From a virus, in IMG/VR virus record IMGVR_UViG_3300030117_000686, positions 2,263-33,847 of that record: a stretch of 31,585 nucleotides of DNA; one strand, written 5' to 3'. The notes under the pieces are model-generated. The model made no database searches, was not told where the DNA came from, and saw nothing but the letters and a program-made list of their open reading frames with translations. Positions 30-31,300 of the stretch are shown here, in pieces (the stretch's first letter is position 1; each line of letters begins with the position of its first letter). A program made the translations under genes and the position numbers.

Positions 30-284
30 ATGACAAATAGAGATGCTATGTTACTTCGCAAGTATGCCAGGTCATACAAGACAAAAGAAAGTTTTGTTAA
101 TAGTGTGAAGCAAATGCCTTTTATGAAGAAGCTGAACAATGAAAGAATGGTTGAGCTTTCTCTTGAGGGATATTGGGTTTTTTTTAAAGAGCTTACTGAT
201 ATTCAAAGGATTGGAAGAAGTGCGGAAAAGTTTGTGCATGGTTATGTAAGTAAAAAGATACATGAGGTTTATAAAGATGAATAG
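30..284 (+). CDS. hypothetical small phage protein
   Basis: An 84-residue, lysine-rich, soluble-looking protein that I do not recognise. No signal peptide, membrane segment or known motif is visible. The ATG at 30 is chosen because a strong GAGGGAG ribosome binding site lies a few bases upstream. The frame is also open back to the window edge, so a longer form starting outside cannot be fully excluded. Its 3' end overlaps the start of the next gene, which suggests one transcript and coupled translation. The ten codons before it (frame 1, ending TGA at 31-33) may be the tail of a preceding gene, but that is too short to call. Confidence 0.7.
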   Translation: MTNRDAMLLRKYARSYKTKESFVNSVKQMPFMKKLNNERMVELSLEGYWVFFKELTDIQRIGRSAEKFVHGYVSKKIHEVYKDE

Positions 285-534
285 AGAGCAGTTATTAAAA
301 GAAGCATTAAAGGTTGTTTCTCATAGAGGTAAAGATTATGGCGATATTAAGACTAATCATGAGAGGATAGCTGCTCTCTGGTCTGTTATACTAGAGAAAG
401 AAGTTAAAGCTACTGATGTGGCTTTGTGCATGGTTGCAGTTAAGATGGCAAGATTGATTGAAACACCAGACCATCAGGATAGTTGGGTAGATATTGCTGG
501 TTACTCGGCTACTGGTTCGGAATGTTTAAAATAA
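277..534 (+). CDS. DUF6378-like phage protein
   Basis: An 85-residue protein with the pattern typical of the DUF6378 phage family: an N-terminal EQLLKEAL helix, then a KDYGD element, an NHERIAALWS segment, and a later VALCMVAVKMARL helix followed by SWVDIAGYS. The family is common in phage early regions; its biochemical function is not established, though its all-helical pattern resembles MazG-type proteins (inference). I choose the ATG at 277 because GAGG at 264-267 lies about nine bases upstream. An in-frame ATG at 262 would add five residues but has no ribosome binding site. It overlaps the stop of the preceding gene and is the last rightward gene before the terminator at 607-646. Confidence 0.75.
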   Translation: MNREQLLKEALKVVSHRGKDYGDIKTNHERIAALWSVILEKEVKATDVALCMVAVKMARLIETPDHQDSWVDIAGYSATGSECLK

Positions 535-606
535 ACTTGCAAACTTTCTCGTTTATAGTGTAGAATATTTATTGTGAGTCAACGACTCCATTGTTGTTAT
601 GATGAG

Positions 607-646
607 AAAAAAGAGGAAGTTAGAAATAGCTTTCTCTTTTTTTTTT
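607..646. terminator. bidirectional Rho-independent terminator
   Basis: A 13-bp stem (607-619 with 630-642, one G-T wobble) encloses a 10-base loop. The right arm runs into ten Ts on the + strand, and the left arm begins with six As, which gives a U-tract on the - strand too. It sits between converging gene clusters (rightward genes end at 534, leftward genes end at 861), so it can stop transcription from both sides. The A-rich/T-rich flanks form part of the stem, so the GC-containing core is short. Confidence 0.75.
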
Positions 647-711
647 GCTCTTTCGTTATTTTTTTATTGACAAGAAATTTCTCTTTTGTAAAATCCATCT
701 CTGATGGTGCT

Positions 712-844
712 ATTCATAGCATGCAATTCATAGTTTCTATTCATAGCATGCAATTCATATACAATTAAATTTAAAAAAAATATGAACAGCATGCAATTCA
801 TAGTTACTATTCATAGCATGCAATTCATAGCATGCAATGAATAG
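712..844. repeat. iteron-like array of 14-bp units with GCATGC cores
   Basis: The unit ATTCATAGCATGCA occurs intact at 712-725, 739-752, 809-822 and 823-836, with a variant (ATGAACAGCATGCA) at 782-795. Each run is followed by a partial unit ATTCATAG or close variant (726-733, 753-760, 796-803, 837-844, the last inverted to ATGAATAG). Linkers TTTCT (734-738) and TTACT (804-808) give a 27-bp superperiod. An AT-rich spacer (761-781) splits the array into two halves. GCATGC cores start at 719, 746, 789, 816 and 830. The 8-bp arms CTATTCAT (807-814) and ATGAATAG (837-844) are inverted repeats. On the - strand, 781-802 folds weakly and is followed by eight Ts, so part of the array may also end leftward transcripts. 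An origin, partition-like or regulator-binding site is possible; none is proven. The rest of the 535-860 gene-free stretch holds only the terminator at 607-646. Confidence 0.9.
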
Positions 845-860
845 TAGCAAAGTTTAAATT

Positions 861-1037
861 TTAAACATCTACAAAACAATTTGTTGTTGCACAATCGCTG
901 CAACAATCATTTCTAACATATCCATCATGTGCAAAGTTCCAATCGTCTATAGTAAGTTCTTCGACAACAAATTGTTTCCTGCATACATTACATTTTATAA
1001 CATCTTCTTCTACTATGTCAGTTAAGTATTGTGCCAT
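861..1037 (-). CDS. small Cys-rich zinc-ribbon-like protein
   Basis: A 58-residue ORF with six cysteines: C16 and C19 as one CxxC, C45, C46 and C49 containing a second CxxC, and C54. Two CxxC pairs separated by about 26 residues fit a zinc-ribbon fold; metal binding is inference. A GTGGAG ribosome binding site lies eight bases before the ATG, and the ATG overlaps the stop of the upstream gene in a TAATG junction, so translation is probably coupled. It is the last gene of the leftward cluster, ending just before the repeat array. DNA binding, RNA binding or a protein partner role are all possible; I cannot name the family. Confidence 0.75.
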   Translation of the reverse strand: MAQYLTDIVEEDVIKCNVCRKQFVVEELTIDDWNFAHDGYVRNDCCSDCATTNCFVDV

Positions 1038-1437: not shown

Positions 1438-1458
1438 TTTATTTCTCCATTGTTGTTG

Positions 1459-1767
1459 TTATTTTTCATCTTGATAGATTCTATTGATAAGAATTGAAAG
1501 AGTATTGCTTATGGCTCTTTCTCCTCTTTCGTGCCTGGAAACAGATATTTTATCTATTCCTAGTAAGTTCGCAAACTCATCTTGTGAATATTGCAATTCT
1601 GTTCTGATAGCTTTGTATTGCTCTTTTGTCATGCTGCTATTGAAATTGCTTTTATGAATTAGCTTTTCTCTCAATACATTGATTTCACCCTGATAACCAA
1701 GTATTGCATTTTTTAGAGATACAACTTCTTTTCGTGCTTTCTCTAATTCCAGGTTAATAACTTCCAT
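1459..1767 (-). CDS. coiled-coil plus Cro/CI-type HTH regulator
   Basis: A 102-residue protein. Residues 5-40 form a heptad-like coiled coil rich in Glu, Lys and Leu. Residues about 50-95 form an XRE/Cro-CI helix-turn-helix: YKAIRTELQYSQDEFANLLG is helix 1-2, and ISVSRHERGERAIS is the turn and recognition helix with the family's usual W/H-E-x-G-x-R ending. Known members bind palindromic operators as dimers; the coiled coil would supply dimerisation here (inference). A GAGGAA site lies eight bases before the ATG, and the gene overlaps the end of the upstream gene by 14 bases. The 17-bp palindrome in the promoter at 3752-3780 is an obvious candidate target, which would make the operon self-regulating; this is not shown by the sequence. 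Confidence 0.85.
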   Translation of the reverse strand: MEVINLELEKARKEVVSLKNAILGYQGEINVLREKLIHKSNFNSSMTKEQYKAIRTELQYSQDEFANLLGIDKISVSRHERGERAISNTLSILINRIYQDEK

Positions 1768-2637: not shown

Positions 2638-2684
2638 TTTATTTGCCTTTCTGTGTTGTTATGATTTGCAATAAACAAATCTTG

Positions 2685-2988: not shown

Positions 2989-3019
2989 GTTTATACTCCT
3001 TTTTGTTGTTATGATTAAC

Positions 3020-3378: not shown

Positions 3379-3558
3379 CTATTTGTTGTTATGAATTGTT
3401 ATTAGTGGATAGTATAAAGTTATTATTGTAAACATTCCAGAAAGCATCATTACTGTAAAGAATAAGCCTGGCATGTTTAAAGATAGTAAGTAAAAGCTTA
3501 AAGGCATTATAAAAAAGAATTGTGCCAAAGCTATTAATAATGTTGTTTGATAAGTCAT
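3379..3558 (-). CDS. small two-span membrane protein
   Basis: A 59-residue, strongly hydrophobic protein. Residues about 5-27 and 28-52 form two predicted transmembrane helices (LLIALAQFFFIMPLSFYLL; GLFFTVMMLSGMFTIITLYY) with a short LNMP turn. I prefer this frame over an overlapping 62-codon frame (3389-3577) because it gives a coherent membrane protein and its ATG overlaps the stop of the upstream membrane gene (TAATG). The other frame gives a random-looking product. Its stop lies in the leader of the 3020-3367 gene. A role at the host membrane (holin-like, superinfection exclusion or similar) is possible but unsupported. Confidence 0.7.
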   Translation of the reverse strand: MTYQTTLLIALAQFFFIMPLSFYLLSLNMPGLFFTVMMLSGMFTIITLYYPLITIHNNK

Positions 3559-30952: not shown

Positions 30953-31300
30953 TTATACCCCTAATAATCCCTGTAATTTTTCTTCTTCTGTTAAATCCTC
31001 TAAATCGTAATATCTTTTAGACATCATATAACGCTGACTACGACCTGAATCACCTTTTTTGGTGGTGTTACACCTAACAATCAAGTTCTTCTCCTCTAGT
31101 GCCTTAAAACGAGCAGTAATGGATGAATATCTAAATTGAGGTAGCTTTTTTAATACATCATCCTGTATGCACCCAGATTGTCCGTAACTATCTATGACTT
31201 CATAGACAATTTTCTCCATTTTTGACACATCAATGCTTTCAACTGCTTCAATGCTAGTTGTATCAGCATCATTTCTGTAAAGTTTATATAGTTCTGTCAT
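30953..31300 (-). CDS. winged-helix DNA-binding-like protein
   Basis: A 115-residue protein. Residues about 25-95 have a winged-helix layout: MEKIVYEVIDSYGQSGCIQD, then VLKKLPQFRYSSITARFKAL with the recognition helix, then EEKNLIVRCNTTKKGDSGRS and QRYMMSKR as strand-wing. The S(S/V)(I/V)(T/S)AR...AL-E-x(K/N)L(I/V) pattern recurs in phage wHTH proteins near recombination genes. An acidic tail follows. It may regulate early genes or bind replicating DNA. It starts in a TAAATG junction with the preceding gene. Confidence 0.8.
   Translation of the reverse strand: MTELYKLYRNDADTTSIEAVESIDVSKMEKIVYEVIDSYGQSGCIQDDVLKKLPQFRYSSITARFKALEEKNLIVRCNTTKKGDSGRSQRYMMSKRYYDLEDLTEEEKLQGLLGV

Follow-up and report, generated by a model that had tools for sequence, protein, structure and literature searches.

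A GCATGC repeat array as the candidate body of a conserved, promoter-led element between converging early operons of an uncultured pelagiphage

Genome setting and layout of the locus

The DNA analyzed here (referred to as the window) is a stretch of 31,585 nucleotides, comprising bases 2263 to 33847 of an IMG/VR virus record with a total length of 33,847 bases (IMGVR_UViG_3300030117_000686). End-to-end comparison of the record retrieved 98 identical bases at both ends, as expected for a complete, circularly closed genome of ∼33.7 kb. The encoded portal protein shares ∼57% identity with its counterparts in HTVC010P, HTVC034P, Skadi, and Lederberg, which places the phage in an uncultured lineage that is sister to the HTVC010P-type pelagiphages, a group that ranks among the most abundant viruses of the sea. 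Virion gene order matches that of HTVC010P, HTVC034P, and Lederberg (Ubiqueviridae), and the early operons converge correspondingly. Phages of this type are described as relying on host RNA and DNA polymerases, with no DNA polymerase of their own (PMC10504331). Left of the window, the rightward early operon includes a C-5 cytosine DNA methylase gene (L088:997-1938; record positions 997 to 1938), and a run of N at window positions -9 to 0 (record positions 2254 to 2262) marks an assembly gap within a reading frame.

The junction of the two early operons carries the following features, given in window coordinates:

262-534, plus strand: DUF6378 gene, the last of the rightward early genes
537-645, plus strand: adjacent 3' untranslated region (UTR) or putative small RNA (sRNA), with a promoter-like sequence (537-566), a hairpin (576-588), an anti-leader segment (586-605), and an intrinsic terminator (604-645)
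667-694, plus strand: sigma70-type promoter-like site TTGACA-N16-TAAAAT (11/12), reading into the array
695-707, no strand assigned: palindrome CCATC-TCT-GATGG, overlapping the predicted transcription start and present as a single copy in the genome
712-759, plus strand: left half of the array, with units at 712 and 739, a variant unit at 726, and a half unit at 753
760-781, plus strand: AT-rich spacer with A-tract TTAAAAAAAATAT; an A-tract followed by TAT is common to the elements of sister clades
782-844, plus strand: right half of the array, with a diverged unit at 782, units at 809 and 823, a variant unit at 796, and an inverted half unit at 837
805-824 and 827-846, no strand assigned: terminal inverted repeat (90%), pairing GCATGC cores 4 and 5
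about 865-1037, minus strand: small gene right of the array, at the end of the leftward operon
about 4090 to 865, minus strand: leftward early operon, including the gene for a small HTH_3 protein
1459-1767, minus strand: small HTH_3 protein of this opposing operon (Pfam match to HTH_3), evaluated below as a candidate array binder

An initial sequence-only reading of the window had reported the array at 712-844, and its description (five GCATGC cores in 14-bp units, a 27-bp superperiod, and an AT-rich spacer) was reproduced in full. Exact copies of the unit ATTCATAGCATGCA start at 712, 739, 809, and 823, while the copy at 782, ATGAACAGCATGCA, differs from it by 3 mismatches. The variant units ATTCATAGTTTCT (726) and ATTCATAGTTACT (796) lie between copies and give rise to the 27-bp superperiod, which is underlain by two ATTCATAG-TTTCT/TTACT spacers. 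GCATGC cores are located at 719, 746, 789, 816, and 830; the entire 33.8-kb record contains 7 such sites, 5 of them within the array. A genome-wide search for the unit at 0 to 2 mismatches gave no additional copies beyond the reverse-complement match of the terminal inverted repeat itself, and 100 first-order Markov simulations of the window never placed four copies of the same 14-mer inside 150 bp. The reported placement between converging operons, with the DUF6378 gene (plus strand) on the left and a small minus-strand gene on the right, was likewise borne out. Two details of the reading required revision. The units were described as direct repeats, but because GCATGC is self-complementary, the same units are also inverted repeats. 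Additionally, the region had been considered one where no promoter is expected, whereas the site at 667-694 matches the sigma70 consensus at 11/12 positions and points into the array.

The array is rare in sequence databases. The 18-mer CATAGCATGCAATTCATA was found in only three other virus contigs among 2.9 million; among bacterial genomes, two unrelated metagenome-assembled genomes (MAGs) gave an 18-mer match, in each case isolated and without an array. Searches of public phage records using blastn found neither the array nor the corresponding element of a sister clade (clade B, described below). Literature searches gave no paper on GCATGC iterons in phage and none describing the element in pelagiphages. 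A search of Rfam gave no covariance-model match at the gathering score, with weak microRNA matches falling below the cut-off.

Frame and body of the element among related phages

Searching for the unit in relatives, as the sequence-only reading had proposed, retrieved the same array from an equivalent position in three close relatives (L085, L086/L091, and L087/L092). The gene to its right differs among these phages, being a zinc-finger-like open reading frame (ORF), another ORF, or the HTH gene directly. Across the four array-bearing sequences, 9 of 139 columns are variable in the array versus 13 of 132 in the remaining spacer. In the isolated phages HTVC010P, HTVC034P, and Lederberg, at most ∼60 bp separate the converging genes and the element is absent.

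In clade B, the larger sister clade, the promoter, an A-tract (AAAAAAAATAT), and the terminal inverted repeat align with those of the window at the same spacing, while the body is a different, nonrepetitive sequence. These three components align across 23 distinct intergenic regions. In all, ∼46 distinct clade B copies were collected. The promoter is present in 36 of 36 distinct matching clade B cores and in all 41 exact 17-mer matches that belong to the element; the remaining exact 17-mer matches to the clade B core are unrelated sequence. The aligned counterpart of the promoter in many relatives is a perfect TTGACA-N16-TATAAT (12/12), which is the only such site in the relative contigs L035 and L044. 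The start-site palindrome recurs in relatives with other arms (CAGC/GCTG, CAAGC/GCTTG, or CAAC/GTTG) and variable 3-nt centers, and it has been lost in one subgroup of clade C. A different inverted repeat occupies the terminal position in relatives. When a sequence-only model was applied, each of six relatives (32.5 to 35 kb) gave one element on the expected strand, and the clade A relative G009 gave a weak match; HTVC034P, HTVC010P, and Lederberg gave none. Because its body has diverged, the window falls short of the cut-off of this model.

Clade C (L068, L256, L260, L267, L270, L275, and L278) combines the same promoter with an unrelated direct-repeat array, in which a 13-bp unit, ACTGCAGTAATAT, is present in 3 or 4 copies and carries its own palindromic core, CTGCAG. 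This array is followed by an A-tract and then by a long stem (AAATAGTCGTG/CACGACTATTTTT; -24 kcal/mol) that leads into a T-run. Comparison of the clade A, B, and C elements indicates that the frame was kept while the body was rebuilt, twice as an array of 13- to 14-bp units with a 6-bp palindromic core. Judging from these alignments, the array in the window forms the body of an element that is conserved and consists of a promoter and start-site palindrome, a variable body, and an A-tract with a terminal inverted repeat. The case is of interest in that one conserved, promoter-led, putatively non-coding element would have had its body rebuilt from different repeats in each clade. An AT-only array in another relative (TATAATATATACTG; 14/28-bp period; L094:1752-1845) was initially assigned to this locus. 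Because it is flanked by the HTH gene and a small Zn-ribbon-like ORF, it was not counted as the same element.

Predicted transcript and competing explanations

The predicted fold of the plus-strand RNA of the window contains two core pairings, one between cores 2 and 3 that encloses the A-tract and one between cores 4 and 5 that forms a terminal hairpin (energy z of -6.5 relative to dinucleotide shuffles). Folds more stable than those of dinucleotide shuffles were predicted for 13 of 13 elements tested (z of -2.4 to -7.1). Folds of the reverse strand are about as stable, and as such these values demonstrate conserved inverted repeats rather than which strand matters. The inverted repeats persist with changed arms across relatives, and in some clade B relatives one pair of the terminal stem is changed on both sides, from U-A to A-U. 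Terminator-like folds (a stem plus a T-tract) are clear in clade C and in part of clade B, while no clear rightward terminator was found after the array in the clade of the window. A simple terminator scan found none because the folds have long nested loops.

The promoter, the frame, the inverted repeats, the position, and the turnover of the body are directly visible in the sequences. With a probability of roughly 0.5, we interpret the array as the body, specific to its clade, of a short and structured non-coding transcription unit rather than as a classical replication origin. Host RNA polymerase would start at TTGACA-N16-TAAAAT (667-694) and produce an RNA of roughly 150 to 180 nt, which in this clade would be built from self-complementary 13- to 14-bp units. 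In the sister clades, the same promoter would lead into other hairpin or repeat bodies with a terminator-like fold at the end, and in each case the unit would be placed where two early operons converge. From these features we infer transcription, selection acting on the RNA rather than the DNA, and a regulatory or decoy role of the RNA during infection. As a candidate RNA gene, the element has its own promoter by sequence match alone, one that is conserved across clades; against such a gene, the start-site palindrome would fall mostly outside the RNA. Relative to phage-encoded small RNAs (reviewed in PMC12197685), the element is similar in being intergenic and non-coding, with its own host-type promoter and a structured predicted RNA; it differs in that its body is a clade-specific repeat array with no Rfam match. 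The 180-bp element provides a defined target for studying early-gene control and the initiation of replication in HTVC010P-type phages.

Could the element instead serve chiefly to keep the two early operons apart, as a bidirectional terminator or roadblock to which the promoter and repeats are accessories? It sits exactly between the converging operons, as bidirectional intrinsic terminators do; the clade C stem, flanked by an A-tract and, on its other side, by a T-tract, can be read as a terminator in either direction, and leftward transcripts in the window would meet TATGAATTGCATGCTGTTCATA-TTTTTTTT (-4.1 kcal/mol). However, a near-consensus promoter firing into a terminator would be superfluous, the rightward operon in this clade already possesses its own terminator (604-645), and no clear rightward terminator follows the array here. 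Cultured HTVC010P, HTVC034P, and Lederberg also manage with at most ∼60 bp at this junction. We regard such a barrier function as unlikely. A role as a replication origin, either through iterons bound by a phage initiator or through transcription priming (promoter plus A-tract) with the host replisome, appears slightly more doubtful. The architecture is suggestive of one: tandem direct repeats of one short unit are present, as an iteron origin requires, and they occur together with an AT-rich spacer, an A-tract, a promoter, and adjoining early genes. The lack of an own DNA polymerase in the HTVC010P type (PMC10504331) is compatible with this view. In addition, HTVC034P and Lederberg both carry a DnaA C-terminal-domain (DnaA_C) protein; searching this genome and 11 relatives for the HTVC034P gene gave no match. 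Initiation could therefore proceed differently in this lineage, and an alternative origin is conceivable. A DnaA-type origin was rejected, since DnaA boxes form no cluster, are not enriched, and do not occur in the array, in addition to the missing DnaA_C gene. Duplex stability is unexceptional, the best array window being weaker than most of the genome, yet with 2 to 7% of genome windows weaker still. The proposed GC-skew inflection was not evident: composition skew follows gene direction, and no difference in third-codon GC skew was seen between the two putative arms (z of 1.25). The AU-rich composition of the RNA disfavors a stable RNA-DNA hybrid, and a strong promoter reading through the repeats sets the element apart from iteron-type origins, as does its absence from cultured family members. 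As for a partition site, no Par proteins were matched among the selected genes scanned with Pfam. Overall, the iteron-like architecture, converging position, and conservation noted in the sequence-only reading stand, while its origin or partition interpretation is disfavored by the promoter, the turnover of the body, and the lack of a co-varying binder.

This last point also bears on the possibility that the direct repeats form an operator cluster, bound by the HTH (1459-1767) or winged-helix (30953-31300) protein and controlling the promoter. A small HTH gene lies near the element in every relative, the start-site palindrome is typical of a dimeric repressor site, and CTATTCATAG half-palindromes occur within the array. 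Both proteins had been suggested as binders of the array, and they were rejected as such, whether as repressors or as origin initiators, because neither tracks its sequence. In clade B2, one and the same body and palindrome occur together with HTH proteins of two unlike recognition helices (TIRMITYYES and DAMTVSRYET); conversely, clades A, B, and C have winged-helix proteins with a similar recognition region despite their unrelated arrays. Furthermore, the palindrome and the array unit are absent from the other promoters of the genome. An operator cluster is accordingly the most improbable of the explanations considered. Close relatives differ in their small HTH protein, whose recognition helix comes in at least four kinds; this variation suggests that DNA specificity has been exchanged. 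HTVC034P carries gp08 (L090:2100-2567) at its equivalent convergent junction, a protein that is annotated as DNA-binding and shows a weak match, below the cut-off, to an Sf6 small-terminase-like family.

The neighboring anti-leader segment

A terminated segment (∼571-648) lies between the DUF6378 gene and the array promoter. Within it, CTCCATTGTTGTTATGATGA (586-605, plus strand) is complementary to leaders of the opposing genes: 5 of 11 leftward leaders match it perfectly over 9 to 13 nt, either at the Shine-Dalgarno sequence or immediately upstream of it. Among these leaders are the following:

1445-1457, minus strand: AACAACAATGGAG, leader of the 1243-1437 gene; 13 nt complementary, covering the Shine-Dalgarno sequence
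2654-2665, minus strand: ATCATAACAACA, leader of the 2320-2637 gene; 12 nt complementary
3003-3015, minus strand: ATCATAACAACAA, leader of the 2716-2988 gene; 13 nt complementary
3383-3394, minus strand: TCATAACAACAA, leader of the 3020-3367 gene; 12 nt complementary

The null expectation for complementary leaders is 0.4. In a control run that excluded the spacer itself, ∼3% of random segments matched as many leaders, and the count of 5 of 11 alone is therefore suggestive rather than decisive. A stronger point, to judge from the paired sequences, comes from the relative L094, in which the segment reads GTTGTTGTGATGA and the leader ATCACAACAAC, corresponding to a compensated change at one pair (A/G and T/C swaps relative to the present phage). 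Such complementarity to leaders was not found for the clade B and C elements. The array unit was also considered as an antisense sequence to phage gene leaders and was rejected, giving no match of ≥9 nt in its own genome.

The segment at 586-605 could be an antisense regulator that the phage directs at its own early genes, and it predicts a specific RNA-RNA interaction spanning several phage genes. Taken further, a fast-evolving, repeat-bodied non-coding RNA gene and an anti-leader 3' UTR or sRNA might together constitute an RNA-level switch between converging early operons in a widespread lineage of ocean phages, a proposal that we put forward only tentatively and consider improbable as a whole. 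Separately, many leftward genes in clades B and C have leaders with AACTAGCAAAGG in common (for example, at L011:3799-4298, at L035:5369-6359, and in L068). Directly downstream of the promoter, several clade B elements contain CTAGCAAAG in the same sense, either as a possible decoy or by chance.
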